The notes beneath the pieces were generated by a model. The model was not told the DNA's origin. It saw only the letters and a program-made list of their open reading frames with translations, and searched no databases. Positions 14,173 through 34,321 of a DNA stretch of 64,000 bases are shown in pieces (positions within the stretch are counted from its first letter, which is position 1; the number at the start of each line of letters is the position of its first letter). The stretch spans positions 81,296 to 145,295 of the forward strand of contig CACWPS010000002.1 of the NCBI GenBank assembly GCA_902762875.1. Reading direction: 5' to 3'. This DNA is from Oscillospiraceae bacterium (GTDB lineage: Bacteria > Bacillota > Clostridia > Oscillospirales > Acutalibacteraceae). The translations under genes were made by a program, and so were the position numbers.

Positions 14173-14346
14173 GTGATTTTTAAGAAAAAAATTGCGGTGA
14201 TTTTGGCGGTTGTTTTGTCCCTTGCGATACTTAGCACCGCAGTAGCAAAGGGATATGAATATATCGCCGTCGGCGGTACTGTGACCGAACAGCGGACAAT
14301 AATCCTCGATGCAGGCCACGGCGGGTTAACTAATACTATAGATTAG
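14173..14346 (+). pseudogene. cwlD: cwlD 5' segment (N-acetylmuramoyl-L-alanine amidase), interrupted by element
   Basis: A GTG start with GGAG seven bases upstream begins an IFKKKIAVILAVVLSLAILS signal-anchor helix, then the secreted amidase start TIILDAGHGG. There the host sequence stops and seven element-encoded codons (LTNTID and TAG) end the frame. The rest of the gene, starting inside the same HGG codons, lies at 33751-34321. CwlD is the mother-cell/forespore amidase that, with PdaA, makes muramic-delta-lactam in spore cortex so that germination enzymes recognise it. As it stands the fragment lacks almost the whole Amidase_3 domain and cannot be functional. Precise excision would restore it. 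Confidence 0.93.
14312..14327. mobile_element. attL core of the cwlD element
   Basis: CAGGCCACGGCGGGTT lies here and CAGCCCACGGCGGGTT at 33747-33762, a 16-bp match with one mismatch that contains an identical 12-bp core CCACGGCGGGTT. The core encodes the H-G-G of the amidase motif. On the element side it is followed by GTTAACTAATACTATAG (overlapping the core end), the mirror of an arm at the other end. Confidence 0.9.
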
Positions 14347-14383
14347 GTCCAAAACTGCCGTGAAAATTCAATAAAAAACCTTA

Positions 14384-14410
14384 GAAAACCCGCATAAACA
14401 GCGGGTTTTC
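14384..14410. terminator. Hairpin terminator at element left end
   Basis: GAAAACCCGC and GCGGGTTTTC form a perfect 10-bp stem with loop ATAAACA. A and T tracts on both sides mean it can work in either direction, insulating the element from cwlD transcription. Confidence 0.65.
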
Positions 14411-14522
14411 GCCATTTTATGACAATTTAACTAAGGGAAGTGAATTTAACCTACAAATTTCTAAATTTTAATGCAATGCAGGTTAAAATATGGTATAATA
14501 TTTTATAGTAGGTGACGAGATA

Positions 14523-14756
14523 ATGGATAAAGCTATGAAACGAAAGCAAGATTTATTTAAACTTTGTAACGGTATGGATGAACTTAATATAAATATAAAA
14601 GAGAAATGTCTTTCTTTTTCTGAAGCAATGCTTTCAATTGAGGGAATGAAGGTTAGCAATGAGGTTACACTTGCTCTTGAAGAATGGAAAGAAGGTAAAG
14701 CAACTTATTTATCAATTTTCGAATCAACACTTCAAAGATACGGGTTTAACACATAA
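14523..14756 (+). CDS. Small hypothetical protein upstream of HipA-like kinase
   Basis: The 77-residue, mostly helical, charged protein (MDKAMKRKQDLFKLCNGMDE...) is preceded by an extended -10 (TGGTATAAT, 14491-14499) and GGTGA. I recognise no domain. It lies 75 bp before a kinase gene that has its own promoter, so a toxin-antitoxin relationship is possible but is not shown by the sequence. No HTH is visible, unlike the usual HipB partner. Confidence 0.6.
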   Translation: MDKAMKRKQDLFKLCNGMDELNINIKEKCLSFSEAMLSIEGMKVSNEVTLALEEWKEGKATYLSIFESTLQRYGFNT

Positions 14757-14771
14757 TTAAATGCTTAACAG

Positions 14772-14800
14772 TTGAATTTTAAAATAGAATCGTGTATAAT
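14772..14800 (+). promoter_or_regulatory. Sigma-A promoter of HipA-like kinase
   Basis: TTGAAT (14772-14777), 17-bp spacer and TATAAT (14795-14800) lie 31 bp upstream of the kinase ATG, which has an AGGAG ribosome-binding site. Confidence 0.75.
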
Positions 14801-14831
14801 ATATTAAAAACAAAGAAAGGAGAAAAAGTTT

Positions 14832-15866
14832 ATGAAGGATTTTGAGATTTTAAGCCGTGATACAGTTGTCGCTGTTTGGAAAGATAACGAGCTTAAAGTG
14901 TTGAACAGCGATTTATTGCCTTTATATTTAAAGCGTGTAAACGATGCTAAATCTTGGCTTGAAACAAGGGCTATTGACTCACACAGAGCAAACTCTAGAC
15001 TTCTCAAAAAGGCATTGCGACTTGCTGAGAAAGACGATGTTTCAACTGTGCTTCACGTTAACGCCGCAACTATTACCGACACATATTGGGTGCGCGCTAT
15101 CGGCAGTGATTTGAAATATGAAGATGTTCGCTTTAATAAAGACTATTTCTCCAATCTGGCACTAAGAGGACTTTATTCAAGCTTTAATTCTGCCGCAAAG
15201 CGTAAGGATACAAAAACACCGGAGCTGACCAATATCGGTAGCTTTGAAAAGTGCTGGAAGCTCAAAGACGGAAAATGGTGGATTTATAAATCTGCTAACC
15301 AAAAGGAGCAGTTTTCGGAGCTTTTTGTATATGAATTAGGTAAATCCCTTGGAATGAATATGGCTCATTACGAAAAGGGTGACAAATGCGTTAAGTCGCT
15401 TGATTTTACCGATTCGGCAAAGGTCATATTTGAACCGGCTTCATCCTTTATGGGTGACGAGGAAGATTATATTAAAGTAGTTGAAAAGTTAAAAGAACTT
15501 TGTCCTAAAGCGATTCCTGACTATATTAAGATGATTTTCCTTGATACCATAACTGCTAACCCTGATAGACACACCGGAAACTTCGGTTTAATGCGTGATG
15601 CTAAAAGCGGTGAACTGTTAGGACTCGCACCTAACTTTGATAACAATATGGCGCTTATTGCCCGCGGATATCCTACAAGCAAATCCGCAAATGACCTTTT
15701 AATAACACTCTTTAATGAACTAATGGAAAAACATCCTGAATATAAAGAATACTTGCAAAAAGTCACAGAGCAAATGATTAAAAAAGTCATTAGCAAACTT
15801 AATATGAAAGTGAAATCTCAGGTAATTGTTGATTTTGTAATCAATCGTTATCAAGCAATTAAATAA
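14832..15866 (+). CDS. HipA-like kinase-domain protein
   Basis: The 344-residue protein has the HipA-type catalytic loop TANPDRHTGNFGLM at residues 241-254 (D245 and N250 as catalytic Asp and metal-binding Asn) and the DFG-equivalent APNFDNN at 266-272. WWIYKSANQKEQFSELFVYE around 149-168 supplies the ATP-binding region with its lysine. HipA-family kinases phosphorylate targets such as glutamyl-tRNA synthetase and act as toxins; CtkA-like relatives are effectors. The N-terminal 100 residues do not look like the usual HipA N-subdomain. A terminator follows at once, so the gene stands alone with its own promoter. Confidence 0.8.
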   Translation: MKDFEILSRDTVVAVWKDNELKVLNSDLLPLYLKRVNDAKSWLETRAIDSHRANSRLLKKALRLAEKDDVSTVLHVNAATITDTYWVRAIGSDLKYEDVRFNKDYFSNLALRGLYSSFNSAAKRKDTKTPELTNIGSFEKCWKLKDGKWWIYKSANQKEQFSELFVYELGKSLGMNMAHYEKGDKCVKSLDFTDSAKVIFEPASSFMGDEEDYIKVVEKLKELCPKAIPDYIKMIFLDTITANPDRHTGNFGLMRDAKSGELLGLAPNFDNNMALIARGYPTSKSANDLLITLFNELMEKHPEYKEYLQKVTEQMIKKVISKLNMKVKSQVIVDFVINRYQAIK

Positions 15867-15872
15867 ATGACA

Positions 15873-15915
15873 AAAACCCTTGTAGCAGATAACATTCGCT
15901 ACAAGGGTTTTTTGT
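15873..15915 (+). terminator. Terminator after HipA-like gene
   Basis: AAAACCCTTGTAGC and GCTACAAGGGTTTT form a 14-bp perfect stem with a short A+T loop, followed by TTTTGTTT. Confidence 0.85.
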
Positions 15916-16046
15916 TTATGCTTTAGAAGAAAATGAAGTTAAAATTGATTATGACAAAACTTTATGCAAATCTTTTTTATAGAACCAAAGTAATGACTTT
16001 TTAAAGTTTTGTATGTTTAATTTAAAGGCTTCAAATAATTACATTT

Positions 16047-16778
16047 CTACAACCGAACTACAAAAGGAAAATATGGTGTACTACGAGGTTTTTCGATTTG
16101 AGGGTTTTGGTTATTATTGCTTTTTTCCCTTGTAGCGACACACGCTTGGTTGTGGATGCTTACTATGCTTTGGAATGATTTTGAAAAAGTTGGTTGTGCG
16201 GCCCATTTTCGTGCACACTGTAACAGAGAATAACTATAGTATCCGCCTTTTCTACTATCGTCTCCAGCGGTTTCGTTTAAATCGCATGCATATGCAACGA
16301 CTGTTCCATCTGGACAAGCAGCAAGTAACTCTTCGTAATATTTTCGTGCTGCAATGCCGTTCATATCTCTTTTTTCTATTAGTGAAGAAAATTCATGTAT
16401 TAGGCTTTCATTAATAGATTCAGCGTTTTTTCTGCAACAATCTAAAATAATGGTTCTTTTCTTAGCATCATTATTTAATAAATGTGCATAAATTTCACAA
16501 TCTTTTTTTAACTCTATTATTGTTTCACCTTTATATGAACAACCGTGTCCACAAAAAACAATGATTGAATAATCAATATTTTTTAATAAATTCAAATGAA
16601 TTTCAAGCAAAATTGATGAAGGTTTATTTAAACATTCAATCTCACTTTCATACCAATAACCACCTTGTGGAGACATTAAAAAATTCTTATAATTGACAAC
16701 ATCTTTATTTACTCCTTCACAATAGTTTTCAGAACCTATTTCACCCGGATTAGATATTATTAAAGCTTTTCTAGTCAT
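16047..16778 (-). CDS. Caspase-like (peptidase C14) protein
   Basis: The 243-residue protein opens with a strand TRKALIISNPGE, has the catalytic histidine in IIVFCGHG (H78), and the catalytic cysteine in IILDCCRKN (C114/C115, the second most likely catalytic). A later segment GTVVAYACDLNETAGDD resembles the S1-pocket strand of bacterial caspases. It is a single-domain protease with no obvious sensor domain. AAGGAG lies before the ATG at 16778, which overlaps the end of the upstream membrane-protein gene by 8 bp, so the two are translationally coupled. Bacterial caspases often act in abortive-infection systems; here that role is inferred from context. Confidence 0.8.
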   Translation of the reverse strand: MTRKALIISNPGEIGSENYCEGVNKDVVNYKNFLMSPQGGYWYESEIECLNKPSSILLEIHLNLLKNIDYSIIVFCGHGCSYKGETIIELKKDCEIYAHLLNNDAKKRTIILDCCRKNAESINESLIHEFSSLIEKRDMNGIAARKYYEELLAACPDGTVVAYACDLNETAGDDSRKGGYYSYSLLQCARKWAAQPTFSKSFQSIVSIHNQACVATREKSNNNQNPQIEKPRSTPYFPFVVRL

Positions 16779-17628
16779 TGCAACAGTTCTCCTTATATTC
16801 TTTATTTTCAAAATTACTAATAATTGATGGTACTAAGCGCTCGCTAAAACCCGCTATAATACATATAAGTATCAAGCAGTATTGAGAATTTTCTTCTGAA
16901 TGGAAATTTGCAAAAATTAAATCTAAATTATATAAATATATAACTACAAAACCACTAATAACACTTGCGAACATTCGTGATAGAATTTCAAGGAAATTAA
17001 GAAATCTTCCTGATTCGCAATCATAACATTTTTTACCGCTTTTTTGAATTATTGAAAGTGTTGCTCCAATAGTTCCTAAAACAGAATACCCTAGGGTATC
17101 AATAACTTCAGTGGATATTCCTAAAAAATTAGATATAACCAAATAGTTTTGTTTGGCAAACCCAGCTATTAATAAAATAACAAATAAAATTATGAAGCAA
17201 AACTCTAATTGCCATTTTCGGGTTATTTCACAATTTCTATTGTTTAAGTATTGCTCTGCAGCGAGGATATGTTTATCTGCCTCACAAAATTCGTTTTCTA
17301 ATACTAAAACAACCGCTTCTGCCAACATATAATTGAATTCTTTATATTGTTTTTTAGACAAACAGCGGGCTATTGGCTGGTGCTGCAATAAACCTATTTT
17401 TGAAATATATGTATTAATATCATTTTTATTATCTGTGTCATATTTTTCTGTTGTTTCCCAATCAAACTCATTTTCACTATCAAGCCATACTATATATCTT
17501 TCACTACTGTATCGGACCAAAGTGTTAACGTTATCTACCGATATGTCAGAAAAATTTTTTAATATTTCAAGAATTTCTGTGCGTCGTATGTTGTTCTTGT
17601 TTATAATCCGTATGTTTCCTATATCCAT
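16771..17628 (-). CDS. Four-helix membrane protein coupled to the caspase-like gene
   Basis: The 285-residue protein has a soluble N-terminal half (about 1-138) and four hydrophobic segments: LEFCFIILFVILLIAGFA (near 145), LGYSVLGTIGATLSII (near 183), MFASVISGFVVIYLY (near 220) and YCLILICIIAGF (near 250). The last is followed by SERLVPSII. The G-F-S-E-R pattern recurs in uncharacterised bacterial membrane proteins. It has its own consensus promoter and an AGGAGG site, and overlaps the protease start by 8 bp. It could anchor, sense for, or be the substrate of the caspase-like protein. I do not assign a function. Confidence 0.75.
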   Translation of the reverse strand: MDIGNIRIINKNNIRRTEILEILKNFSDISVDNVNTLVRYSSERYIVWLDSENEFDWETTEKYDTDNKNDINTYISKIGLLQHQPIARCLSKKQYKEFNYMLAEAVVLVLENEFCEADKHILAAEQYLNNRNCEITRKWQLEFCFIILFVILLIAGFAKQNYLVISNFLGISTEVIDTLGYSVLGTIGATLSIIQKSGKKCYDCESGRFLNFLEILSRMFASVISGFVVIYLYNLDLIFANFHSEENSQYCLILICIIAGFSERLVPSIISNFENKEYKENCCND

Positions 17629-17657
17629 ATTGCCTCCTATAAATTTTACTTTAAAAT

Positions 17658-17686
17658 ATTATACCTTATTTTTCCAAGTAAATCAA
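17658..17686 (-). promoter_or_regulatory. Promoter of membrane protein/caspase-like operon
   Basis: On the minus strand TTGATT (17686-17681), a 17-bp spacer and TATAAT (17663-17658) lie about 30 bp before the ATG at 17628. Confidence 0.75.
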
Positions 17687-17925
17687 TTGTTTTCGACAGG
17701 TTTGGTGTGAATATAAGGATATATAGGATTGCAAAAGACATAATTTTGTGTTGTCATATAAAGAGAGTAATTATAATTGGAAGCAAAAATTAAATATGGT
17801 CTCAGCACAAAGATTGGCGGTGTGGTTTACACTGCATATGTGCTGTATTTTTTCTAGTAAATTAAATGAAATACTCTTAGAACAAACACAAAACAAATGA
17901 TTTTTTTATAAAGTGAATATTAAAT
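17687..17925. other. Gene-free stretch with an imperfect hairpin
   Basis: No gene is seen. On the plus strand CAGCACA (17803-17809) pairs with TGTGCTG (17839-17845), enclosing GTGTggtttACAC, and ATTTTTTC follows, so a small terminator or structured RNA is possible. The remainder is AT-rich without recognisable features. Confidence 0.45.
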
Positions 17926-17966
17926 AAGCAACAAGCCGCACCCATTGAAGGTGCGGCTTGTTGCTT
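17926..17966 (-). terminator. Long perfect terminator hairpin after XRE gene
   Basis: AAGCAACAAGCCGCACC (17926-17942) and its exact complement (17950-17966) form a 17-bp perfect stem with a 7-base loop. It overlaps the stop codon of the XRE gene and has T-rich flanks on both sides, so it may be bidirectional. Confidence 0.88.
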
Positions 17967-18282
17967 ATTTTTGTTCTTTTGTCAAACGGCGAATATGCCC
18001 GATAATCAGCATCATATCGTCATCGTTAAGTTTTCTGAGTTCATCAATCGCACTTTGAAGCAGTGCAGGGTTTTCAATAGAATCATCGAAGAATTGGCTG
18101 GGTGTAATTTCAAAATAATTACATATCTCAAGGAACTCTGCCATAGGCGGCAAGGACTTGCCAGAAGATATGTTATAGATATAACTTCTGCTATGACCGA
18201 GGTCATAACTCATTTGGTATTCTGAAACACCCTTTTTGAGCCGCAATTCTGTAATTCTATTTCTAATAAAAGTTCCGTCCAT
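17965..18282 (-). CDS. XRE-family transcriptional regulator
   Basis: The 105-residue protein has a Cro/CI helix-turn-helix over about residues 5-60: IRNRITELRLKKGVSEYQMS, then DLGHSRSYIYNISSGKSLPP and LEICNYFEITPSQFFDD. The C-terminal 40 residues are helical and may dimerise. ATG 18282 is preferred to the GTG at 18291 because AGAGGTG lies 8 nt upstream of it. It diverges from the SLOG gene, sharing a 195-bp AT-rich intergenic region, and could regulate it. Confidence 0.88.
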   Translation of the reverse strand: MDGTFIRNRITELRLKKGVSEYQMSYDLGHSRSYIYNISSGKSLPPMAEFLEICNYFEITPSQFFDDSIENPALLQSAIDELRKLNDDDMMLIIGHIRRLTKEQK

Positions 18283-18359
18283 ATTGTTCACACCTCTCTA
18301 TGTTTATATTTTAGTCTATTGGGAGGGCAAACTATTCCAAGAATATATGTTGAATTATC

Positions 18360-18388: not shown

Positions 18389-18476
18389 CGAATATAATAT
18401 GTTTACAAGTTCGTATTATTGCAAAAACATCAAAAATAATATTGTTAAAACATAAATACTTGGAGTTTGATATAAC

Positions 18477-18956
18477 GTGTTGGGGATTTTTACTGTCGCC
18501 TTTTTCGGTCACAGGTATATAGATAATCCGTTGAGGGTTGAAGAATTACTTGAAGAACAGATAAGGAAACTTATTGACGAAAAAGAGTATGTGGATTTTT
18601 TGGTGGGGCGTAACGGCGAGTTTGATCAGTGCGTTTCATCAACCGTGCTTCGTGTACGAAAAAATTATAGGGATGATAACAGTTCTCTTGTTTTGATGCT
18701 ACCATACCCAACCGCCGAATATATTAATAACCAAAATTATTATGAAGATTATTATAGTGACATTGATATTTCATATGCAGCTTCAAAAGCGCACCCGAAA
18801 GCTGCTATACAAATTCGTAATCGAGAGATGGTAGATAGAGCTGATTTGGTTATTTGCTATATCGAGCATAACGAGGGCGGTGCTTATAAAACCATAAAAT
18901 ATGCTTCGGAACAGAATAAACCCATAATCAATCTTGCTGATTGTGTTGACTATTGA
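18477..18956 (+). CDS. SLOG-family (YpsA/DUF1273-like) nucleotide-binding protein
   Basis: The 159-residue protein starts FTVAFFGHRYIDNPLRVEEL and has FLVGRNGEFDQCVSS, LVLMLPYP, NREMVDRADLVICYIEHNEG and GGAYKTIKYA, the conserved G-H-R, G-x-x-x-F-D and A-D-x-x-I blocks of the SLOG superfamily (relatives of DprA and LOG enzymes). Such proteins are proposed to bind nucleotides or their derivatives and occur in conflict systems. The start is GTG with GGAG 11 bases upstream. It is followed at 18970 by a small membrane protein, and a decayed piece of a second copy lies at 19196-19252. Confidence 0.82.
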   Translation: MLGIFTVAFFGHRYIDNPLRVEELLEEQIRKLIDEKEYVDFLVGRNGEFDQCVSSTVLRVRKNYRDDNSSLVLMLPYPTAEYINNQNYYEDYYSDIDISYAASKAHPKAAIQIRNREMVDRADLVICYIEHNEGGAYKTIKYASEQNKPIINLADCVDY

Positions 18957-18969
18957 AAAGGAGAAGAAA

Positions 18970-19348: not shown

Positions 19349-19780
19349 ATGGATAGTATTACTAATTTAATAAAATCTGAAATCAAGCGTCAGTATAAAA
19401 GTCTGCGCCAATTCTCAGAGCAAAGTGGTATTCCGTACAGCACCTTATCCAATGCTTTAACTAAGGGCATTGGCGGAACATCATATGATACTGTTGTTAA
19501 GATATGCGACCTTTTAAATCTAAAGCAGATTTATGATACTGAGGTTTCATTGTTTAACGAGCAATTTCACGAAATAGGTACAATGCTTACCGCTCTTGAC
19601 GAACAGGGTGTTCATACGGTTAAAACTATTTTAACGTTAGAATATAACCGTTGTATAGATAAGCAGTCCGAACCGGCTATAAAAGGATTTAACGGTATAG
19701 CGTACGCAGCAAAAAAGATACACGACGAAAAGCGAAATGAAATTAAGCGCCTGGTTGATGAGGTAAAGAGTAATGAATAA
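19349..19780 (+). CDS. XRE-family regulator paired with ImmA-like protease
   Basis: The 143-residue protein has an N-terminal HTH: LIKSEIKRQYKSLRQFSEQS, then GIPYSTLSNALTKGIGGTSY and TVVKICDLL. The C-terminal half is helical. AGGAAGTG precedes the ATG at 19349. The stop overlaps the next gene by 8 bp. Regulator/ImmA pairs such as ImmR-ImmA of ICEBs1 control element excision: the metalloprotease cuts the repressor after DNA damage or cell signals. That role here is inferred from arrangement. Confidence 0.85.
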   Translation: MDSITNLIKSEIKRQYKSLRQFSEQSGIPYSTLSNALTKGIGGTSYDTVVKICDLLNLKQIYDTEVSLFNEQFHEIGTMLTALDEQGVHTVKTILTLEYNRCIDKQSEPAIKGFNGIAYAAKKIHDEKRNEIKRLVDEVKSNE

Positions 19781-20465
19781 TACTGTCATTCGTCAGAAGG
19801 CTTCGGATTTTTTAAAGAAATTTTCTGTTAGCCAATTGTCGCTGGATAGCCTGCTTAAAGTTTTTCAGAACCAAGGTTTTGATATCATTGAATATAGTTC
19901 TTCAAAAAATTCAGAATCGGTCAGTAAATTAATATCTGCATTAGATATTGAAAAATATCTGTCGGATGGCAAGGCCCTTGCATATAAATCGGATGATATA
20001 AAATTGATATTTATTTGTGAGGATTTAACTGCTGACGAAAAATTATATGCTCTTGCACATGAAGAAGGACATGTATTTTGTGGACACTTGCGCGACGGAA
20101 ATGTTTTGTATAGTGTTGAGGAAGAACGTGAGGCAAACGAATTTGCTCATTACATTCTACATCCAACTGTATTTCAAAGAGCAAAGTCTTTTATAAAGGA
20201 AAATAAAAAGCTTTCAATCGCTACAATATGTCTTGCTTTAGTGATAATCGTAATGATACCGTGTTCGATACATATATTCACTTCAAAAGATAAACCGGTC
20301 TATTCCGAAACATATAACGGCAATTACTATATTACTCAAAGCGGAACCAAATATCATAGAGAAGATTGTACTTATATAAAAGGTAGAAAAACGCAAGTTT
20401 TGACTGAAAAGAAATTGAAATCAGGACATTATGAGCCTTGTAAGGTTTGTTTGCCCAACGAGTAA
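19773..20465 (+). CDS. ImmA/IrrE-family metallopeptidase with membrane anchor and Cys-rich tail
   Basis: The 230-residue protein has the zinc protease motif LAHEEGHVFCGHL (HEEGH, residues 96-100) with a downstream glutamate in EEEREANEFAHYIL. A transmembrane helix follows at about 147-170, then a small C-terminal domain with KYHREDCTYIKGR and GHYEPCKVCLP (about 193-228), a Cys-His pattern seen at the ends of secreted nucleases and other surface proteins. Typical ImmA proteins are soluble, so the anchor and tail suggest it senses something at or across the membrane. It overlaps the repressor gene by 8 bp. Confidence 0.85.
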   Translation: MNNTVIRQKASDFLKKFSVSQLSLDSLLKVFQNQGFDIIEYSSSKNSESVSKLISALDIEKYLSDGKALAYKSDDIKLIFICEDLTADEKLYALAHEEGHVFCGHLRDGNVLYSVEEEREANEFAHYILHPTVFQRAKSFIKENKKLSIATICLALVIIVMIPCSIHIFTSKDKPVYSETYNGNYYITQSGTKYHREDCTYIKGRKTQVLTEKKLKSGHYEPCKVCLPNE

Positions 20466-22983: not shown

Positions 22984-23337
22984 ATGAAAGATATAGAAGT
23001 TTTACAAAATTCAATTGCTAATATTTCTTCGGAATTATGTAGATTTAAAAATGTGTTTGAAAAAGCTATAAGTAAACTTGATTTTGAAGAACAAAGCAAG
23101 TATATGAGCCAATTTGCTTGGTTTTCAAAAAAGGTTACAAAAGCTGTCGAAGAGGCAGGTCTTAGAATTGTAAGTCTTGAAGGACAGGCGTATGACCCAG
23201 GCATGGCGGTTACGCCGCTAAACATTGATGATTTTGAGGTTGAGGATGAGCTTAAAATCGTTCAAATGATAGAACCTATTATTATGCAAGAAGATACTGT
23301 ATTAAAAACAGGCACTGTTTTACTTGGGAGGATTTGA
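22984..23337 (+). CDS. GrpE-like nucleotide exchange factor (diverged)
   Basis: The 117-residue protein has an N-terminal helical stretch (about 1-60) and a C-terminal part that follows the GrpE wing: EEAGLRIVSLEGQAYDPGMA, then VQMIEPIIMQEDTVLKTGTV. The D-P-G-x-x-V and closing G-T-x-L-x-G positions match the GrpE pattern (FDPxxHEAV ... VLRPAxVxV). It is shorter than housekeeping GrpE, lacking most of the long dimer helix. Its stop overlaps the SD region of the Hsp70 gene, 2 bp from that ATG, so the exchange factor and Hsp70 are coupled. The similarity is by eye; confirm with a profile search. Confidence 0.65.
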   Translation: MKDIEVLQNSIANISSELCRFKNVFEKAISKLDFEEQSKYMSQFAWFSKKVTKAVEEAGLRIVSLEGQAYDPGMAVTPLNIDDFEVEDELKIVQMIEPIIMQEDTVLKTGTVLLGRI

Positions 23338-23339
23338 AA

Positions 23340-25823
23340 ATGAAATATTACATAGGAATTGACTTAGGCACAACAAACAGTGCTATTTGCTCGTACGACG
23401 GTGAAAATATCCGTGTTTGGAAAAGTCCTGAACAAAACGATGTAACACCATCTGCTATTTATGCGGATAAGCGTGGCAACCGCTATTACGGTAATAAAGC
23501 ATACAATCAGGCACCGTATAACCCTGATAATTCAGCAACCTTATTTAAGCGTTATATGGGTACGACAATGAAGCTTGAACTAAAAGCTTCGGGGATTTCG
23601 CTTACCCCCGAAGAATGCAGTGCAGAAATATTGAAGGTTTTATACGGATACTTACCTGAAGAAATACGCAATAGCGATGACACAGCAACCGTTATTACAG
23701 TTCCCGCTGCATTTAATCAAATGAAGAAAGATGCAACCTTGCAAGCTGCGAAGCTTGCAGGGCTTGGTAATGTTGCTTTAATGCAGGAACCCGTTGCTGC
23801 TATTATGAGCATTATGCGCCTTTCTAAAAAAGAAGGCATCTTCTTGGTTTATGATTTGGGTGGCGGTACATTTGACGTTACTATAGCAGAAAATATTGGC
23901 GGTAAAGTAAATCTACTTGCAACAGGCGGCGTTGAATCCTGCGGTGGTAGAGATATTGACCGAATGATTTTTATGCAAATTGTAGTTCCGTGGTTAAAGC
24001 AAAATTTTGCTCTACCTGATGATTTTCTTGGCAACAGCAAATATAAAACCTTTATCCGTGTAGCACAATGGGCAACCGAGCGTGCAAAAATCGAGTTATC
24101 TGCAATGGGCACAAGCACTATTGCTCTTAGCGAAGGCGAAGCCAGAACAACGGATGAAGAAGATAATGAACTTTATTTGGATATTGACCTTACTCGTGAA
24201 CAAGTGGATAATATTATTGCGGACTTAATTGCAGAAACCGTAGCCGCAACGCGTGAAACCTTAGCTAAGGCAGGACTTTCTGCTAATGATTTGGAGCGTA
24301 TTGTTTTTGTTGGTGGTCCTACCAACTATAAGCCTTTAAGGGATAAGGTTGCATTTGAACTTTCTTTGCCAGCAGATATTGATGTTAATCCTATGACCGC
24401 TGTTGCTGAGGGCGCAAGTATTTTTGCCGAGTCTATCGACTGGTCAACATCTAACCACAACCGTAAAGCAACTAACGAAACTGCGAATACACAGTTGGAT
24501 CTTTCGTTTAAATACACAGCGAGAACACCTAATGATTCTGCAAAGATTATGTGTGTGCTTGGCAAAGAACTTAACGGATATACTATTCTTTTCACAAGTC
24601 TTGATACAGGTTGGACTTCGGGTAATGCACCGTTAAAGGATAAGGCTATGCTTGATTTACCCTTATCTAAAAACGGTGAAAACCGCTTTTCTGTAAAAGT
24701 ATTTGATGAATTTGGTAAAGAAATTAGCGCAGTATCCGAGCCAATTATAATAACTAAAACTTTAGCTACTATTGGTGCTATTCCTGCTTCACATTCTATC
24801 GCCATCGAGGTTATTGATAAACTAGGTGGAACACCAACCCTTGAATTCCTTGTAAAAGAAGGAGATGCTCTACCTAAAAAGGGCGGTATTAACTTTAAGG
24901 CTGGTCAGACAATTAAAGCCGGTTCAAACGATTCTCTTAACATCAAGCTTTGGGAAGGCGAAATTAAATCACCCATAGATGATAATAGATTTATTGGAGT
25001 TTTGAAAATAGCTGGAACTGATATTGATAGCGGTGTAATACCTACCGGTGCAGATATTGAGTGTGAATATGAAATGTCAGATTCAGGCACAATTAATCTT
25101 GAAGTATCTATTCCTTGTATAGGTGCATCGTTTGGAAATCATAATTTCTATTCCCGTCAAGAAGGACAAACTGACCTTGAAAACATCGATGCTTTAGCTG
25201 AACAAGGTCGCAAATTATTAGAACGTATTGAAGATATGTCCGATAAGGTTTCAGATCCAAATTTAGAAAATGCTCGCAAAAAGGCAGAACTTGCTGCAAA
25301 TATTGACAGTATGGAAAACTGTGAGCCTGAGGATGTTCAAAAGGCGAATAACGAGCTTCTCGATGCTAAAAAATTGATGCATCAGTCCCGTCAGGATAAT
25401 TTACAGATTATCAGACAGATGGAGCTTGATAATTGTGTAGAATTCTTTAATGAGGTTGTTCGCCAGTATGCTACATCTAGTGAACAGCAAATGTATGATA
25501 ATTTAGTTCGTACTGCTCAACATGCTATTGACCGCAATGAAAATAGTTTTGATAATCATCTTAGCAATTTGAGAACTAAAAATACTATGATTTTATTGCG
25601 TCAAGATTGGTTTATTGTTGACTGGTATAATCGTGCAACCTCCGCAACTGCGAATTATATTGATATTGCTCGTTTCAACGAACTAAAAAGACGCGGTGAT
25701 ATCGCTCTTGCAAACGATAACATTGACGAGCTTCGCCAGATTCTGTTTGAGCTTCTTTCAATTCAAATTCATGCAGATTCCGGTGACGGTATGTATGATG
25801 TAGCAAATATAATAAAGGGGTAA
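23340..25823 (+). CDS. Hsp70 (DnaK-like) protein with an extra beta domain
   Basis: The 827-residue protein has a complete nucleotide-binding domain: IGIDLGTTNSAI (5-16), VITVPAAFNQ (118-127), MQEPVAAIMS (148-157), LVYDLGGGTFDVTI (169-182) and IVFVGGPTNY (near 320). Next comes an unusual beta-rich stretch of about 110 residues (about 375-490), then a substrate-binding beta domain recognisable by LPKKGGINFKAGQTIKAGSN, LNIKLWEGE and IDSGVIPTGADI, then a long helical tail (about 610-827). Housekeeping DnaK is about 610 residues and lacks the insert. The phosphate-binding motifs are intact, so it should hydrolyse ATP. GGGAGG precedes ATG 23340. Confidence 0.93.
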   Translation: MKYYIGIDLGTTNSAICSYDGENIRVWKSPEQNDVTPSAIYADKRGNRYYGNKAYNQAPYNPDNSATLFKRYMGTTMKLELKASGISLTPEECSAEILKVLYGYLPEEIRNSDDTATVITVPAAFNQMKKDATLQAAKLAGLGNVALMQEPVAAIMSIMRLSKKEGIFLVYDLGGGTFDVTIAENIGGKVNLLATGGVESCGGRDIDRMIFMQIVVPWLKQNFALPDDFLGNSKYKTFIRVAQWATERAKIELSAMGTSTIALSEGEARTTDEEDNELYLDIDLTREQVDNIIADLIAETVAATRETLAKAGLSANDLERIVFVGGPTNYKPLRDKVAFELSLPADIDVNPMTAVAEGASIFAESIDWSTSNHNRKATNETANTQLDLSFKYTARTPNDSAKIMCVLGKELNGYTILFTSLDTGWTSGNAPLKDKAMLDLPLSKNGENRFSVKVFDEFGKEISAVSEPIIITKTLATIGAIPASHSIAIEVIDKLGGTPTLEFLVKEGDALPKKGGINFKAGQTIKAGSNDSLNIKLWEGEIKSPIDDNRFIGVLKIAGTDIDSGVIPTGADIECEYEMSDSGTINLEVSIPCIGASFGNHNFYSRQEGQTDLENIDALAEQGRKLLERIEDMSDKVSDPNLENARKKAELAANIDSMENCEPEDVQKANNELLDAKKLMHQSRQDNLQIIRQMELDNCVEFFNEVVRQYATSSEQQMYDNLVRTAQHAIDRNENSFDNHLSNLRTKNTMILLRQDWFIVDWYNRATSATANYIDIARFNELKRRGDIALANDNIDELRQILFELLSIQIHADSGDGMYDVANIIKG

Positions 25824-25827: not shown

Positions 25828-27225
25828 ATGGAACAGTGGTTACCGAGAGGCTATAATATTGCCGATGACAATAGAATAAAAAGAGTATTTTCACAGGATG
25901 ATAGTTGGCAAATTTATCTTACTAACAGGGATAATTATGTCCTTGCGGTGACCGCTGATTTATACCGACTTTGGATAGAGGAATATAGTTTACCCGAGAA
26001 AATTTTTTCAAAGTTAGATTTAGGATATTTCATATTCTGCGGTACTAATACATATTTGGTATCATCCTTAAAAAGTGGACCGTATCCCGAAAATGGCGGA
26101 CAGGTTGAGGCTTTTTCTCTTGCTTTTAACACCGCAGCAAGATTATATCCTAATGCTGATTTGCAAAATGCGGTTTATATTGAGGAATATTCTTTACTGT
26201 TACCAACAGAGTTTAATCTGCCCGAAAGCAATAACGCTATTGCATACGGTAAATGGCTTACGGGTGGTATAAATATTCCCGTAACATCAATTAAAAGAAT
26301 CAGCCAAATTGCGTCTTGGCTGAATAAAGACTTTCTTTATAATTCCGTTAAACTTGCAGGATTTGATGTTGAACCTATAGAGTATGATGATAATTCAGCT
26401 CTTGTGACAGAAACAAAAACTGAAACTGTCGCTCCAATGGCACCACCAACTGATTCTGTATGTAACGGTCAGTTCTCGTTAATAGGAAGGCCTGATCTTG
26501 AGCAGTTCTTCAACGACAATATTATTGATATTGTTACAAACCGTGAAGCATATGCTCGTATGGGCATAAACTTCCCGGGAGCTACTATTCTTTACGGACC
26601 TCCCGGTTGCGGTAAGACATATGCAATTGACAGATTGGCAGAATTTTTAGGGTGGCAGAGATTTGATATCGATTCAAGTAATATTGCCAGCTCGTATATC
26701 CACGATACCCCTAAAAAGATATCCGAAGTGTTTAATTCTGCAATAAAAGCTGCACCATCTATTTTGGTTATAGATGAGATGGAAGCCTTTTTGATGGATA
26801 GAAATTCTTCGGGACCTGGTACACATCACATAGAGGAGGTTGCCGAGTTCTTGCGCAGAATACCTGAAGCTATTTCAAAAGGTGTATTGATTTTTGCTAT
26901 GACAAACATGCTTGATTCTATTGACCCTGCTATTCTTAGACGTGGTCGTTTTGACCATATTATTGAGGTCAAGATGGCAAGCAAGGAAGAGTTAACGGCA
27001 CTCTTCTCAGCAAAACTTAGCGAATTGCCTACAGAAGATGATGTTATTGCTGAAGACTTGGCGGTAAAACTTGATAAGCATCCGTTGTCCGACGTAGCCT
27101 TTGTGCTTAGAGAAGCAGGAAGACTTGCCGTTAAAAAGAAGTTAGATAAGATTAGCAAGGAATGTTTTGATGAAGCGGTTAACGCTTTGCCAAAAGAAAC
27201 GGAAGACAAGCATATAGGGTTTTAA
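25828..27225 (+). CDS. AAA+ ATPase (FtsH/Cdc48-type) of the Hsp70 module
   Basis: The 465-residue protein has a unique N-terminal domain (about 1-215) and one AAA+ domain: Walker A LYGPPGCGKTYA (255-266), Walker B ILVIDEMEAF (312-321), sensor-1 FAMTN (356-360) and arginine finger RRGRFD (371-376). This is the classical AAA clade with the FtsH/Cdc48-like second region of homology but no protease domain. It starts 4 bp after the Hsp70 stop. With Hsp70 it resembles a disaggregase pair, although it is not ClpB. The N-domain, which would set substrate choice, is not recognised. Confidence 0.9.
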   Translation: MEQWLPRGYNIADDNRIKRVFSQDDSWQIYLTNRDNYVLAVTADLYRLWIEEYSLPEKIFSKLDLGYFIFCGTNTYLVSSLKSGPYPENGGQVEAFSLAFNTAARLYPNADLQNAVYIEEYSLLLPTEFNLPESNNAIAYGKWLTGGINIPVTSIKRISQIASWLNKDFLYNSVKLAGFDVEPIEYDDNSALVTETKTETVAPMAPPTDSVCNGQFSLIGRPDLEQFFNDNIIDIVTNREAYARMGINFPGATILYGPPGCGKTYAIDRLAEFLGWQRFDIDSSNIASSYIHDTPKKISEVFNSAIKAAPSILVIDEMEAFLMDRNSSGPGTHHIEEVAEFLRRIPEAISKGVLIFAMTNMLDSIDPAILRRGRFDHIIEVKMASKEELTALFSAKLSELPTEDDVIAEDLAVKLDKHPLSDVAFVLREAGRLAVKKKLDKISKECFDEAVNALPKETEDKHIGF

Positions 27226-30022: not shown

Positions 30023-30361
30023 CTATCATTTTTAGATGATAGATGACAATATTTCGAGATGATATTTTGATATGATTTATGATACACATTTTGAAATGAT
30101 AGATTAACTATCTTTTCGAAATTCGTTTTGAAATTAACTGTCGGTGCTTAGTATGAAAATATGATTTACTTTTTGATATGCTCCTAACAGATTCTTATAA
30201 GAGTAAGCAAGGATATAAAATATTAATGAGACCAATCTTTAACAAATCTGCAAAAGAATCTATCCTGTCTTTTTGAAATGATATATGACTGTCATTTCGA
30301 AATGAGTGTATGATCATCATTTTCAAATGAGTACAGGAAATATGATTATCATTTATAGAGC

Positions 30362-30407
30362 GGCTCCCATAGACTGCGAATCAGTCTGTGGGAGCCAAAA
30401 TTTTTTG
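30362..30407 (+). terminator. Strong rho-independent terminator
   Basis: GGCTCCCATAGACTG (30362-30376) and CAGTCTGTGGGAGCC (30382-30396) form a 15-bp stem with one wobble pair and a 5-base loop, followed by AAAATTTTTTG. No coding gene ends before it, which implies a non-coding transcript. Confidence 0.88.
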
Positions 30408-30504
30408 TGATTAAAATTTTCGTTAATAAATTTATTTGTACAGCAACCGCCTTAATCAAAATTTTTCGTACACAAACCTATGATTTTATAAATCATACAA
30501 AAAG

Positions 30505-30530
30505 TTAATGTTTTCTTGAAACTCGAAAAA
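30505..30530 (+). repeat. TTCTTGAAAC motif, copy 3
   Basis: TTAATGTTTTCTTGAAACTC then GAAAAA; one base differs from copy 2. TTGAAA (30516-30521) is followed after 17-18 bp by TTATATA. Confidence 0.8.
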
Positions 30531-30627
30531 ATTATTCCTTATATATTTAACATCCAAATATTTTGGTACACAGTTTCAACCTGAACCACTGAGATTGTGA
30601 ACGAAAATTTAGATAAATTCATATGAG

Positions 30628-30644
30628 TTAATGTTTTCTTGAAA
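30628..30644 (+). repeat. TTCTTGAAA motif, copy 4 (short)
   Basis: TTAATGTTTTCTTGAAA is identical to copy 2 over 17 bases, then diverges. It lies 112 bp before the tyrosine recombinase start and has no clear -10 at the expected distance. Confidence 0.75.
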
Positions 30645-30755
30645 TGGCATAAAAACATTATCCACATTTAAGTATCGGAAATTTGTGAAGGGCATCGAGT
30701 AGCACATAGATGTTTTTTTATAAATTCACGAAATATTACGAAAGGAGTAATACTT

Positions 30756-31733
30756 ATGAGTTTAACCCCTGAAGAACACGAACGAAAAGCCGAGAACCAA
30801 AAGCAGAATTTGCTTAATCAAACTCTTCCTGTGATTGATAGGTCAAATCAAGGAAGTTTTAAAACACGTAGACGCTATAAAGCAGTAATGAATAGATTCT
30901 GTGGGTATTTAGGAGAGAATACCACATTGCAGAATTTTAGAAATGTTGAAGTCCGACACGTGCGAAGTTATGTTGAGCATCTTCAAACCAGCGGTTGTAA
31001 GCCAGGATATATACTCACCGAACTATCCGGCATAAAGTGGGTACATCAGCGAATGAACCCTAAACGAAATTTGCCTAAGAGTAATAAATGCTTTTTTGTT
31101 GCTAAGCGCCAATTATATGTAAAGGATAAATCTATTCTTCCGCATGAGTTTGATGACCTTATAAAAGTTGCACTAGATATGGGCCGTATGGATGTGGTTA
31201 TCGAAGCGTATATGGATAGATACTTCGGACTTCGCCACGAGGAGTTTGTAACCCTTCGTGTGCATCAAATTGAGTATGCGCTTAAATATAAACAATTAAA
31301 TCTTACAAACACCAAGGGCGGCAGGCCAAGAGATATACCCGTTGAAACTAAAATGCAGGAGAACATTTTAAGACGAGTATTAGCATACACTCAGAAAAAC
31401 GGTAAGTGTTCTATGGACTATGTTATATGCGATAACCATACAAACAGTGTTAAAAAGAAAAGCAAATCCTTGGATAACTGGATGAACAACAATAAAAAGA
31501 AATTTATGGACTCCGAGCGCACCAAGTACAAAAGCCCAGGCAAACGGCCGAGAGAACAATCGATACATTGGCATAGTCTCAGGCATTTGTTTTATCAAGA
31601 AACTAAAGAACGATACAAAGCCGAAGGCAGAATGACCGATGCACAAATTGAACGAGAACTTTCCGAATCTATGGGACATTCTCGCAACGATGTTAATAAC
31701 ACTTATTCGAATGAAATTAAAAGAATACGGTAA
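30756..31733 (+). CDS. Tyrosine recombinase/integrase
   Basis: The 325-residue protein has an N-terminal SAM-like core-binding domain (about 30-105) and a catalytic domain with the usual residues: R160 in DRYFGLRHEEFVTLRV, K187 in TNTKGGRPRDIPV, H273/R276 in WHSLRHLFYQE, H308 in SMGHSRNDV and Y317 in NNTYSNE. All six catalytic positions are present, so it should be active. AAAGGAG precedes the ATG. It lies between copies 4 and 5 of the TTCTTGAAAC motif. A second recombinase within a serine-recombinase element may act on internal sites or be left from an older insertion. Confidence 0.9.
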   Translation: MSLTPEEHERKAENQKQNLLNQTLPVIDRSNQGSFKTRRRYKAVMNRFCGYLGENTTLQNFRNVEVRHVRSYVEHLQTSGCKPGYILTELSGIKWVHQRMNPKRNLPKSNKCFFVAKRQLYVKDKSILPHEFDDLIKVALDMGRMDVVIEAYMDRYFGLRHEEFVTLRVHQIEYALKYKQLNLTNTKGGRPRDIPVETKMQENILRRVLAYTQKNGKCSMDYVICDNHTNSVKKKSKSLDNWMNNNKKKFMDSERTKYKSPGKRPREQSIHWHSLRHLFYQETKERYKAEGRMTDAQIERELSESMGHSRNDVNNTYSNEIKRIR

Positions 31734-31734
31734 A

Positions 31735-31760
31735 TTATTGTTTTCTTGAAACTTGAAAAT
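31735..31760 (+). repeat. TTCTTGAAAC motif, copy 5
   Basis: TTATTGTTTTCTTGAAACTT then GAAAAT directly follows the integrase stop codon. TTGAAA (31746-31751) lies 17-18 bp before TTAATAC. Confidence 0.8.
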
Positions 31761-31774
31761 AATATTACTTAATA

Positions 31775-31826
31775 CTTTCCCGACAATCGAGCAAAGCTCA
31801 AATTCTGGTTGTCGGAAAGGATTTTA
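31775..31826 (+). terminator. Hairpin after the integrase gene
   Basis: CTTTCCCGACAA (31775-31786) pairs with TTGTCGGAAAG (31809-31819) apart from one bulged C, followed by GATTTTAG. The T tract is short, so it could be a terminator or a leader structure for the recombinase operon. Confidence 0.5.
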
Positions 31827-31893
31827 GTAATGCTGAAAACATTAAATTATTTAAATCAGCATAAACATTATGTAGGCAAGGAGGGCGTGTTAT

Positions 31894-32103
31894 ATGAAGA
31901 AAAATAAAACCGAATATATTGTAGTTAATACGTTCTCCGAAATTAGTGAGGCAGAACGCAAGGAAAAAATAAATAATGCAATTAGAACTCTTTGCGTTAT
32001 GGATATTGAAAAATTATACGAATTGGATTATAATAATAGTGTTGCATTTCACGGCAGCACTCAGGACCTAAGTGGGAAGGAGTGCTTTGAAAATGCTAAC
32101 TGA
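31894..32103 (+). CDS. Small protein preceding the serine recombinase
   Basis: The 69-residue protein (MKKNKTEYIVVNTFSEISEA...) has AAGGAGGG before its ATG and overlaps the recombinase start by 11 bp, so the two are coupled. Short proteins often precede large serine recombinases in Clostridia, and some act as recombination directionality factors. No domain can be recognised here, so that role is a hypothesis. Confidence 0.75.
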   Translation: MKKNKTEYIVVNTFSEISEAERKEKINNAIRTLCVMDIEKLYELDYNNSVAFHGSTQDLSGKECFENAN

Positions 32104-33679
32104 AATTGCGGATATTTATGTTCGCCTTTCTTCAGAAGATAGGGATAAGAAAAACAAGACTGACGAGAGCGAAAGTATCCAAAATCAAAAGACGATGCTT
32201 ATAAACTACTGTATCGAGAAAGGATGGCAAATCAACGGCATTTACTGTGATGAGGATTACAGTGGTGCCGACGCTTCAAGACCTGCTTGGAATCAGGTGC
32301 TAAAAGACTGCGAAGAAGGCAGATGCACGATAGTTGTCTGCAAAACACAATCCCGTTTTTCACGTGATATGGAAATGATTGAACACTTCATTCACGGAAA
32401 GTTTCCTGAATGGGGCGTGCGATTTGTTGCGGTTGTTGATAACATTGACACAAACGTTAAAGGCAATAAAAAAACACGGCAAATCAACGGGCTTGTAAAT
32501 GAATGGCAGTTGGAAGAGTTATCCGACAACGTTAAAGCCACTTTAAGTGTTAAACGTAAAAACGGCGAATTTGTCGGCTCTTTTGCACCTTACGGCTATT
32601 TAATTGACCCCGATAACAAGAATCATTTAATTATTGATGAAGTTGCAGCGCCTACAGTTCAACGGATATTTGATTTATATATCGGTGGACTTGGGTACAT
32701 AAGCATTGCGAAAATATTAAATGATGAGATGATTCCACCACCTTGTGTTCACAAAAAGGAGCTTGGCACTAAGTATTATAACGGTAATTATGAGAAGAAC
32801 AATGCGCCACGGACAACCTGGTCCGATTCGGCTGTTTATGCAATTCTTCGCCGCTTTGAATACACAGGTACTCTGGTCCAGGGAAGACAAGAAGTTGTAA
32901 ACTACAAAACGGGCAAACGCCGTAAAAAGTCGCAAAGTGAGTGGGATATTGTAGAGGATACCCACGAGCCGATTATTTCTAAAGAAACCTTTTATAAGGC
33001 ACAGGAGATTAGGTTATCACGTGGCAGAGGTCAAAAAATCCCAAGCGGTAGTTGTTATTCGCTTGCTAAAAAGGTGTTTTGTGCCGAGTGCGGTAACACG
33101 ATGTGGAAGATGAGCTATAAGTTGCGTGACGGAAGATATAACTATCTTTCTTGCAGAACTCGAAAAACCACTAACGGAGTTTGCCAAAACGCACACAGTA
33201 TTCGCCTTGACGAGTTGGAACAAATCGTAGTAGATGAAATCAATAAGTTACTTGATAAATATTACGATGAAAAGCAGATCGGCAAGTTGGATGCACCCAA
33301 AAGGAAAAAGAACGGTGCTAAAACCTTGCAGTCGCAAATTGCAGAGCTTGAAGAAAAGGTGAAGCGGAACGATAACCGAATGGCTCAGATGTACACCGAT
33401 AAATTAGATGGTATCATCAGCGTAGCGGAGTTTACAAAATATCGAGAAAGCTATCAAAAGGAATCTGCAGAAACAGAAAAACGCATCGAAATTTTGAAAT
33501 CAAAGCTTGCTACACTTATGGGCGGCGAAACAAAAATGGATACTACTCAGGTACTTGAAAAGTACAGAAAAATTGACACTCTTACTTTCGAGATTGCCGA
33601 TGAATTTATAAGCAAAATCTTCATCGGAAAGCTCAAAAAGGATGGCAAGAGAGAAATCAAGATTGAGTGGAAAATTTAG
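32093..33679 (+). CDS. Large serine recombinase
   Basis: The 528-residue protein has the resolvase catalytic domain (IYVRLSSEDRD, catalytic serine S13; QSRFSRDMEMIEHF; ELSDNVKATLSVKRKNGEFV), a recombinase domain (about 165-275), a zinc ribbon (FCAECGNTMWKMSYK and CRTRKTTNGVCQNAH, about 335-375) and a coiled coil (about 400-470). This is the organisation of integrases such as TndX and of SpoIVCA, which excises skin from sigK. It is the last gene before attR, 71 bp from the core, as expected for the integrase of this element. AAGGAGTG before ATG 32093 sets the start. Confidence 0.96.
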   Translation: MLTEIADIYVRLSSEDRDKKNKTDESESIQNQKTMLINYCIEKGWQINGIYCDEDYSGADASRPAWNQVLKDCEEGRCTIVVCKTQSRFSRDMEMIEHFIHGKFPEWGVRFVAVVDNIDTNVKGNKKTRQINGLVNEWQLEELSDNVKATLSVKRKNGEFVGSFAPYGYLIDPDNKNHLIIDEVAAPTVQRIFDLYIGGLGYISIAKILNDEMIPPPCVHKKELGTKYYNGNYEKNNAPRTTWSDSAVYAILRRFEYTGTLVQGRQEVVNYKTGKRRKKSQSEWDIVEDTHEPIISKETFYKAQEIRLSRGRGQKIPSGSCYSLAKKVFCAECGNTMWKMSYKLRDGRYNYLSCRTRKTTNGVCQNAHSIRLDELEQIVVDEINKLLDKYYDEKQIGKLDAPKRKKNGAKTLQSQIAELEEKVKRNDNRMAQMYTDKLDGIISVAEFTKYRESYQKESAETEKRIEILKSKLATLMGGETKMDTTQVLEKYRKIDTLTFEIADEFISKIFIGKLKKDGKREIKIEWKI

Positions 33680-33746
33680 TGAAAATAACCACTCAAAAAA
33701 CGACAAAATATACAAGAACAACAAAAAAGTGTAGTATTGGCTAACT

Positions 33747-33762
33747 CAGCCCACGGCGGGTT
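33747..33762. mobile_element. attR core of the cwlD element
   Basis: CAGCCCACGGCGGGTT contains the 12-bp core shared with attL. On the element side GTAGTATTGGCTAAC precedes it. This is an imperfect inverted copy of GTTAACTAATACTATAG next to attL, so the joined circle would have a symmetrical attP. Confidence 0.9.
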
Positions 33763-34321
33763 TGACGGCGGAGCGGTGGCGCCCGACGGTACTGTTGAAA
33801 AGGACATAAATTTAAAGATTGCCCTTACCCTAAAGGATTTTCTAAAGCAAAGCGGCTTTAGAGTTATAATGACGAGGGAGAGCGATGTTTCAACCGACGA
33901 TGTTGAAACTGATAAGATTGCAACCCGCAAAAAAAGTGACCTTAAAAACCGCTTGGAGCTTATGAGAGATAATCCGAATGCAGTTTTTGTGAGCATCCAC
34001 CTTAACAAATTCACAACCTCGGCGGCGAACGGCTCCCAGGTGTTTTACAGCGCAAAACAAGAGGACTCCAAGGTGCTTGGCGACTGCATACAAAAATCTA
34101 TCGTTAAACTTTTACAGCCCGAAAATACAAGGGTCAACAAGCAGGCCACCAGCAGTACCTATCTTCTCTACAACGCCACCGTCCCCGCTGTGCTGGTGGA
34201 ATGCGGGTTTTTAAGCAACACCGCCGAGCTTAAAAGGCTTAAGGACGAGGAATACCAGAAGAAAATGGCATTTTCGATTTTTTGCGGAATAATAAGCTTT
34301 TATTCCGATAGCAGTATATAA
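33751..34321 (+). pseudogene. cwlD: cwlD 3' segment (Amidase_3 catalytic domain)
   Basis: From the core the frame reads HGGFDGGAVAPDGTVEKDIN, then GFRVIMTRESDVS, RLELMRDNPNAVFVSIHLNK and VPAVLVECGFLSNTAEL, the zinc-binding His, Glu and His and the catalytic Glu region of Amidase_3. Only the H of the first zinc ligand lies in the shared core; D-A-G is in the 5' fragment. Joined to 14173-14315 the frame has 714 bases (237 residues), the length expected of CwlD. The radA ATG follows 17 bp after the stop. A spurious upstream TTG start exists inside the element but would give no signal peptide. Confidence 0.93.

Follow-up and report, generated by a model that had tools for sequence, protein, structure and literature searches.

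The spore-cortex gene cwlD of an Oscillospiraceae bacterium (assembly GCA_902762875.1, designated G000) is interrupted by a 19.4-kb DNA element within the stretch of 64,000 nucleotides analyzed here (contig CACWPS010000002.1, positions 81,296 to 145,295), which we call the window. Judged by sequence comparison, this element is a member of a recurrent, horizontally moving family that occupies a single codon of cwlD and has relatives at other spore genes, and this family is a new finding. We regard it as close to certain that the DNA occupying cwlD is a site-specific mobile element. Our preferred explanation, to which we assign a probability of about 0.58, is that the element is excised during sporulation and thereby rebuilds cwlD. 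This explanation is supported by the exact core and reading frame, the adjoining recombinase, the recurrence at one codon, and the dyad symmetry of the attachment site formed by the joined element ends (attP). Further support comes from sister recombinase clades at cotJC and at a carboxypeptidase gene, from a relative at dpaB, and from a spore-forming carrier in which the split gene is the top-scoring CwlD match.

The 12-bp core CCACGGCGGGTT is present in the window at positions 14316 and 33751, with 19,435 bp between the two copies and no third copy on either strand. Joining the flanks across this core, from the GTG codon at 14173 to position 34321, yields 714 nucleotides that encode 237 codons with no internal stops and contain IILDAGHGGFDGG; the unjoined left fragment terminates in GHGGLTNTID*. 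In profile searches, the 3′ part matches the CwlD model TIGR02883 with 202.7 bits (E 5.6e-60) and Amidase_3 with E 6.4e-46. The curated cut-off of TIGR02883 (221.55) exceeds the score of this piece, which was scanned alone, and the relatives also fall below it, such that only 1 of 99 genomes surpasses it. An earlier note on this DNA had described a cwlD gene split by a 19.4-kb element, with the core at both ends and a rejoined frame of 237 codons; the window search and the flank join bear this out, and a large serine recombinase gene lies beside the cwlD 3′ half.

The interrupted gene is specific to sporulation, as judged from its match to TIGR02883, and it resides in a lineage that has SpoIVA and SigE. 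The G000 genome (1.69 Mb, 22 contigs, 97.55% complete) encodes SpoIVA above its cut-off, and its SigE scores 340.1 bits against a cut-off of 339 for NF006158 and 322.9 bits against 348.6 for TIGR02835, values obtained by scanning a fragment. Its cotJC gene is unbroken within the matched range. A second intact cwlD, which the earlier note had proposed as a point against excision, was not found in a profile search of the contigs of this genome. The remaining Amidase_3 matches are a frame of 689 amino acids and a frame of 248 amino acids beside spoIVA, and the matched stretch of the latter reaches only 30.8 bits against CwlD.

Examination of the attachment sites places the probable crossover on a catalytic codon. 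When the ends of each of the five complete elements are joined, the best dyad of the resulting attP has its center, in every case, at the CA within the His codon of the DAGHGG motif (shuffle P values of 0.0035, 0 of 2000, 0.0005, 0.0145 and 0.0010). The inverted-repeat attP arms and 2-bp crossover core of large serine integrases are seen in all five. In genome G048, CA is the sole dinucleotide shared by the two ends, because the left site (attL) carries CAC, the right site (attR) carries CAT, and the preceding bases differ. The core is short, at 12 bp, but it is established as a genuine attachment site by the other elements of the family. A crossover at this CA would cause every exact excision to remake a His codon and the reading frame. 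We take this His to be a zinc ligand of the CwlD amidase.

The family becomes apparent when the genus of G000 is surveyed. A set of 70 genus genomes includes 56 with a CwlD match at E <1e-50, all of which were inspected. The gene is unsplit in 46 of them, so that uninterrupted relatives, which the earlier note had proposed seeking, are common; it is split by an element of this family in nine (G000, G099, G101, G019, G048, G007, G003, G017 and G036), and the contig of one (G050) breaks off at the core. All 46 unsplit genes encode a hydrophobic N-terminal stretch, judged by eye, and the motif D[A/P]GHG. Recombinases 72-94% identical to that of the window are located upstream of the cwlD 3′ half in G099, G101, G019, G048, G007, G003 and G017; in G048 a HipA-like gene lies between the two, and the elements of G101, G003 and G017 are interrupted by contig ends. 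Beyond the genus set, cwlD is split in four more cases (L127, L128, Marasmitruncus massiliensis and L134).

Elements with both ends located measure 19.4 kb in G000, 30.4 kb in G019, 7.7 kb in G048, 45.2 kb in G007, and 3.9 kb in the cultured isolate M. massiliensis P3646. The four complete genus elements share the recombinase, a small open reading frame (ORF) and a HipA-like gene (82-92% identical); beyond these common genes, the sole matches detected are weak ones (21-26%) of the G007 element to two G000 ORFs. Among nine large ORFs scanned in the G019 and G007 elements are GH38, GH106, a solute-binding protein, CBM30 and an AraC regulator, such that several genes for polysaccharide use or sensing are part of the cargo of G019 (L069, L070) and G007 (L075, L076), versus defence-like cargo in the window element. 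The best CwlD match of M. massiliensis is its split gene (203.7 bits); lesser matches are three frames of 611-1384 amino acids, which score 98-116 bits, and one of 270 amino acids, which scores 22.3 bits. This species is described as a spore former, with spores visible in the micrographs of the article (PMC9584879).

The identities of recombinases and host genes disagree, which indicates that the element moves horizontally. Specifically, the G000 recombinase is 96% identical to that of L127, a metagenome-assembled genome from water deer, and 97% identical to that of L128, with CwlD identities of 54% and 53% and RadA identities of 67% and 66%, respectively. Conversely, G019 and G101 share RadA at 92% but recombinase at only 71%. 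Mismatches in both directions indicate that insertions at this cwlD codon are independent and repeated. L133 (CwlD 48%, RadA 59%) and L134 represent more distant hosts. We considered L127 and L128 as members of another genus and dropped this assignment, given that RadA identities of 60-68% are also found between intact members of the genus of G000; the host distance from G000 is large as measured by these proteins, and we make no cross-genus claim.

A scan of GTDB genomes for related recombinases returned 47 loci, among which L129-L132 repeat the genus copies G099, G019, G048 and G007. The target is cwlD at 8 loci, cotJC at 28, and a D-Ala-D-Ala carboxypeptidase gene at 2. The remaining 9 have no target call; they include L158, with a weak cotJC match 2 kb away, and five that are not judgeable since the contig ends within 114 bp of the match. 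At 24 of the cotJC loci the gene is within 450 bp of the recombinase, and at the other 4 it flanks the element farther off. The gene is presumably cotJC, a name given to it from its sequence; the models say manganese catalase. Next relatives of the window recombinase within the genus are 40-41% identical and also sit at cotJC. A tree built from 54 recombinases unites the cwlD rows in a single clade (SH-aLRT, an approximate likelihood-ratio support value, of 88) and the carboxypeptidase pair in another, and the cotJC rows fall inside a clade of 34; target labels are clustered on this tree, with 0 of 200 shuffles as low. Four of the six rows without a prior target in the clade of 34 (L038, L039, L041 and L040, the last on the same contig as L151) proved also to be at cotJC. 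On IMG/VR contig L174 (11736-12155), a 43%-identical recombinase relative is located beside the 5′ half of dpaB/spoVFB (TIGR02852). The carboxypeptidase target belongs to the general family Peptidase_S11 and perhaps serves the spore.

Several observations on these other target genes were made along the way. A cotJC-type gene is split by the sister clade in many gut Clostridia (L038, L039 and L040, in G058, G025 and G032, and L135-L171), and the carriers include isolates of Butyricicoccus, Anaerotruncus and Parablautia. A pdaB-like gene (TIGR02764), the second sporulation gene of G000 to be affected, is split as well, on contig C12 (L113; 1684-2226, 2255-3820, 7086-7328 and 8224-8466), where its 5′ half is followed by another serine recombinase and then by the 3′ half in two tandem copies. 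We rejected an assignment of this gene as pdaA after comparison of the models. The match to the pdaA model halts at the same place (159-161; 47-160 in G026) in a further nine genomes of the genus, and this place is a contig end in G010, G022, G031 and G008. An unsplit pdaB-like gene with an extra free 3′ half located no more than about 3 kb after it is present in G055:C12, G099:C52, G059:C34, G029:C11, G045:C65 and G100:C34, as if elements had brought or left spare 3′ ends.

The window recombinase matches PF00239, PF07508 and PF13408 above their cut-offs. It also has a borderline match to PF14287 (DUF4368; 25.2 bits against a cut-off of 25), a domain that PMC10083194 ties to multi-targeting recombinases; the clade of the window recombinase is target-specific instead. 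The earlier note had proposed kinship with the skin and SPbeta systems, and the nearest sequence in the PDB is indeed that of the SPbeta recombinase YokA (9dxh, E 6e-15). In a phage collection, the recombinase matches 488 records, all less than 60% identical, and the 12 matches listed are 28-40% identical. Elsewhere in G000, four serine recombinase genes occur in a row (C1:13095-22103).

An ORF of 69 amino acids precedes the recombinase gene and is a candidate for the recombination directionality factor on the basis of its position; profile scans found no family match for it. All 8 of the family members examined have the motif ACAT-N17-[CA]ATAA ahead of this ORF with equal spacing, a pattern recognized post hoc among members of which three are near-identical. 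The starts of ACAT and CATAA are 21 nucleotides apart in the G000 family, and published logos of sigma-K and sigma-E promoters (PMC517825) place the starts of the -35 and -10 elements 20 nucleotides apart; the -10 boxes of the two sigma factors are similar according to PMC3789822. The same two papers give cwlD as a sigma-E gene of the mother cell in B. subtilis and C. difficile. As a sign of mother-cell control, the ACAT-N17-CATAA box offers a weak, post hoc hint. Within the 69-amino-acid ORF and ahead of the recombinase, 7 of 8 members carry a sigma-A-like box that agrees at 11 of 12 bases.

The excision mechanism that we favor would operate as follows. A large serine recombinase would insert the element at the CA dinucleotide of the DAGHGG His codon, and cwlD would remain split in the vegetative line. 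During sporulation, the recombinase of the mother cell would be turned to excision by a directionality factor, for which the 69-amino-acid ORF is the best candidate. CwlD would then be produced in the terminal mother cell and the element retained by the forespore, in the manner of skin and SPbeta. A tentative extension, which we consider doubtful as a whole, is that a recombinase clade in gut Clostridia has specialized on genes that serve only the spore-forming cell (cwlD, cotJC, dpaB, and perhaps the D,D-carboxypeptidase gene), so that non-phage islands with defence-like and polysaccharide-use cargo would ride in the forespore germ line and be cut from the dying mother cell. This would amount to a widespread editing of genomes between soma and germ line, with several spore genes of a cell perhaps rebuilt together.

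Selection on the split genes bears on whether they are still used. The aligned 3′ domain is free of stops in 11 of 11 split genes, and the 5′ halves of all four two-ended genus elements and of L133 have an open frame and, judged by eye, a hydrophobic N-terminal stretch. Synonymous divergence is mostly saturated. We compared CwlD identities binned by RadA identity, for the 50 of 58 genomes with enough radA. In the bins from 68 to 90%, CwlD identity of pairs with split genes is like or above that of intact pairs. In the bin of 60-68%, which contains pairs with the distant L127 and L128, it is lower (0.516, n = 92, and 0.507, n = 18, for pairs with split genes versus 0.548, n = 58), and above 90% it is lower again (0.795, n = 8, versus 0.847, n = 9). 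The earlier note had reasoned that relaxed selection in the 3′ part would speak against excision: the lack of stops and the middle bins give no sign of it, and the two outer bins may do so. The overall pattern fits frequent rebuilding or recent insertion, with some relaxation possible.

The two outer bins belong to a set of findings that weigh against excision during sporulation. Intact frames may simply reflect recent insertion. Neither an excised circle nor an empty site in the same strain was seen, and the attP junction pattern has 0 matches in IMG/VR. Searching G000 with the SigK model retrieves only SigE and weaker sigma matches, none of which qualifies as SigK. Of the 8 upstream regions, 7 give no significant score with a sigma-E consensus, and the sole significant match is positioned elsewhere; over 33 loci of the wider clade, AC-N18-20-CATA was observed 5 times versus 6.0 expected. 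The G036 recombinase (L033:1-1080) is deleted except for approximately 20 residues at either end, and that of G017 (L080) has two in-frame stops in its visible 132 residues. If these assemblies are right, the element's own enzyme cannot rebuild cwlD in either genome. Both nevertheless keep the cwlD 3′ part open (G036 also retains the small ORF and its upstream box), which weakens the case that the earlier note had made from the intact frame against simple decay. Finally, 14 of the 70 genus genomes lack a CwlD match at E <1e-50 (G005, G009, G014, G020, G024, G031, G035, G037, G038, G044, G049, G054, G100 and G107), including G009 and G035, which are more than 90% complete. Such cases may reflect true loss of a dispensable gene, or assembly gaps at an occupied site.

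These same findings lend some credence to the strongest competing explanation, an ordinary selfish integrative element that uses the conserved codon of a gene dispensable for growth. Rare, random excision would then leave spores without muramic-delta-lactam, or spores would seldom form. The horizontal movement and variable cargo, the persistence of 2 of 9 genus copies with broken recombinases, the weak promoter evidence, and the genomes in which cwlD was not found are all compatible with such an element. We nonetheless judge it less probable than developmental excision, given that sister recombinase clades also occupy a spore coat gene and further genes related to the spore, that split cwlD genes show no general excess divergence (two bins excepted), and that a spore-forming isolate carries the element. 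A dead insertion, in which the element is fixed and cwlD is a pseudogene, probably does describe G036 and G017; as a general account it is improbable, because the G000 recombinase frame, attachment sites and both cwlD halves are intact and the aligned 3′ domain is stop-free in 11 of 11 split genes. It is very improbable that the 3′ half is expressed alone as a cytoplasmic amidase from the TTG at 33737 (LANSAHGG...), where an open frame with a start codon does exist, since this product would be missing both the N-terminal stretch and the beginning of the domain, and since the attR-derived leader varies by element, the open frame of G007 starting only at TNHSHGG. An assembly or binning artefact is equally hard to credit: the carriers are mostly metagenome assemblies, and several of their contigs break off inside the element or at the core, but the identical junction recurs in one isolate genome and in assemblies made independently from different animals.

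Table 1. Features of the split cwlD locus and its element, in window coordinates.
Position	Strand	Feature	Basis
14173..14325	+	cwlD 5′ half (hydrophobic N-terminal stretch to DAGHGG)	Layout by eye like 46 intact relatives
14316..14327		attL core CCACGGCGGGTT; probable crossover at CA of His codon, 14317-14318	Core and attP dyad
14328..14341		attP arm contributed by the element, AACTAATACTATAG; repeats the other arm in inverted orientation	attP dyad
14523..14756	+	Small ORF, 77 amino acids, no family match	ORF list, profile scans
14832..15866	+	HipA-like protein, near attL	82-92% identical copies in G048, G007 and G019 elements
16047..16811	-	Cargo: caspase-domain (Peptidase_C14) protein	Profile match
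18477..18956	+	Cargo: weak YpsA/SLOG match, 26.2 bits (cut-off 27.7)	Profile match
19773..20465	+	Cargo: IrrE-like Peptidase_M78 protein	Profile match
23334..25823	+	Cargo: Hsp70-like protein	Profile match
25828..27225	+	Cargo: AAA ATPase, PADLOC IetA similarity	Profile and PADLOC match
30756..31733	+	Cargo: tyrosine-recombinase-like protein, weak match	Profile match
31839..31864	+	Promoter-like box ACAT-N17-CATAA upstream of 69-amino-acid ORF	Post hoc, alignment of 8 members
31894..32103	+	69-amino-acid ORF overlapping start of recombinase frame	Conserved in relatives
32006..32034	+	Sigma-A-like promoter TTGAAA-17-TATAAT inside 69-amino-acid ORF	Pattern in 7 of 8 members, window included
32072..33679	+	Large serine recombinase (Resolvase, Recombinase, zinc ribbon)	Profile matches
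33730..33745		attP arm TGTAGTATTGGCTAAC	attP dyad
33751..33762		attR core; CA of His codon, 33752-33753	Core and attP dyad
33752..34321	+	cwlD 3′ half, catalytic domain, open until stop	TIGR02883, Amidase_3, frame join
34339..35703	+	radA/sms, host gene adjoining cwlD, used as host yardstick	Profile match

The cargo of the G000 element further includes regulators, and its guanine-plus-cytosine content is 34.8%, versus 45.6% in the flanks. No phage structural genes were found among 18 scanned proteins of this element, 10 of which were also compared with PHROGs, or among the nine large ORFs of the G019 and G007 elements in Pfam scans. The G000 element is apparently an integrative element without phage genes among the scanned proteins. 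Scans of the window with Rfam at gathering scores and for tRNAs returned nothing. The segment 23334-28836, in which the Hsp70-like and IetA-like genes are accompanied by a gene for a 533-amino-acid protein without a Pfam or PADLOC match, is a possible defence cassette.

This arrangement invites comparison with elements that interrupt other sporulation genes. The skin element of sigK (SpoIVCA in B. subtilis, CD1231 and CD1234 in C. difficile) is likewise a serine recombinase element whose exact excision restores its target. In C. difficile, the directionality factor of skin is controlled by sigma-E and SpoIIID and its recombinase is expressed from a sigma-A promoter (PMC5025042). The cwlD element resembles this layout, with a sigma-A-like box before the recombinase and another box before the small ORF. 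Unlike skin, it targets another gene, has no phage genes among those scanned, and is mobile with changing cargo; here SpoIVCA and CD1231 are likened by description only. SPbeta in spsM (SprA/YokA, SprB/YotN) contributes the nearest recombinase of known structure by sequence, and its target is rebuilt in sporulation according to PMC4191935. SPbeta is an active phage, unlike the cwlD element as scanned. In B. cereus ATCC10987, gerE is interrupted by gin, which PMC5595907 describes as a non-phage element of 28.6 kb with a serine recombinase, a short direct repeat and low GC content. It is akin to the cwlD element, which is apparently non-phage too, in its similar size, serine recombinase, short repeat and low GC content, and differs in its three recombinases and its target; GirC is again likened by description only. 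Finally, yin in yabG of C. botulinum and vfbin in spoVFB follow the same logic, and spoVFB/dpaB also adjoins the recombinase relative on L174.

The novelty of the family was gauged from the literature. Large serine recombinases have been catalogued broadly, in what we take to be the work of Durrant et al. The text of that catalogue describes target-specific clades (PMC10083194), and its main text contains 'sporul' once and cotJC and cwlD zero times. The interrupted genes listed in PMC10747680 are sigK, spsM, spoVFB, gerE and its own yabG, without cwlD, cotJC or pdaB. Among the matches listed in literature searches, judged by title and the start of the abstract and with subscription papers, preprints and supplements outside the scope, there was no paper on interruption of cwlD, cotJC or pdaA. 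From these sequence comparisons, the cwlD family apparently consists of intervening elements of sporulation genes with new targets, mobile and non-phage, that are served by a target-specific recombinase clade.

The finding offers a cultured carrier with a 3.9-kb version of the element, as well as new site-specific recombinases. If our explanation is true, the calling of spore genes as missing in gut genomes would have to change. The rebuilding of genes in development would then extend beyond a few strains of Bacillus and Clostridium, as a strategy to which the mobile islands of gut Clostridia have turned repeatedly, with new targets, a recombinase clade to themselves and a crossover set on a catalytic codon.

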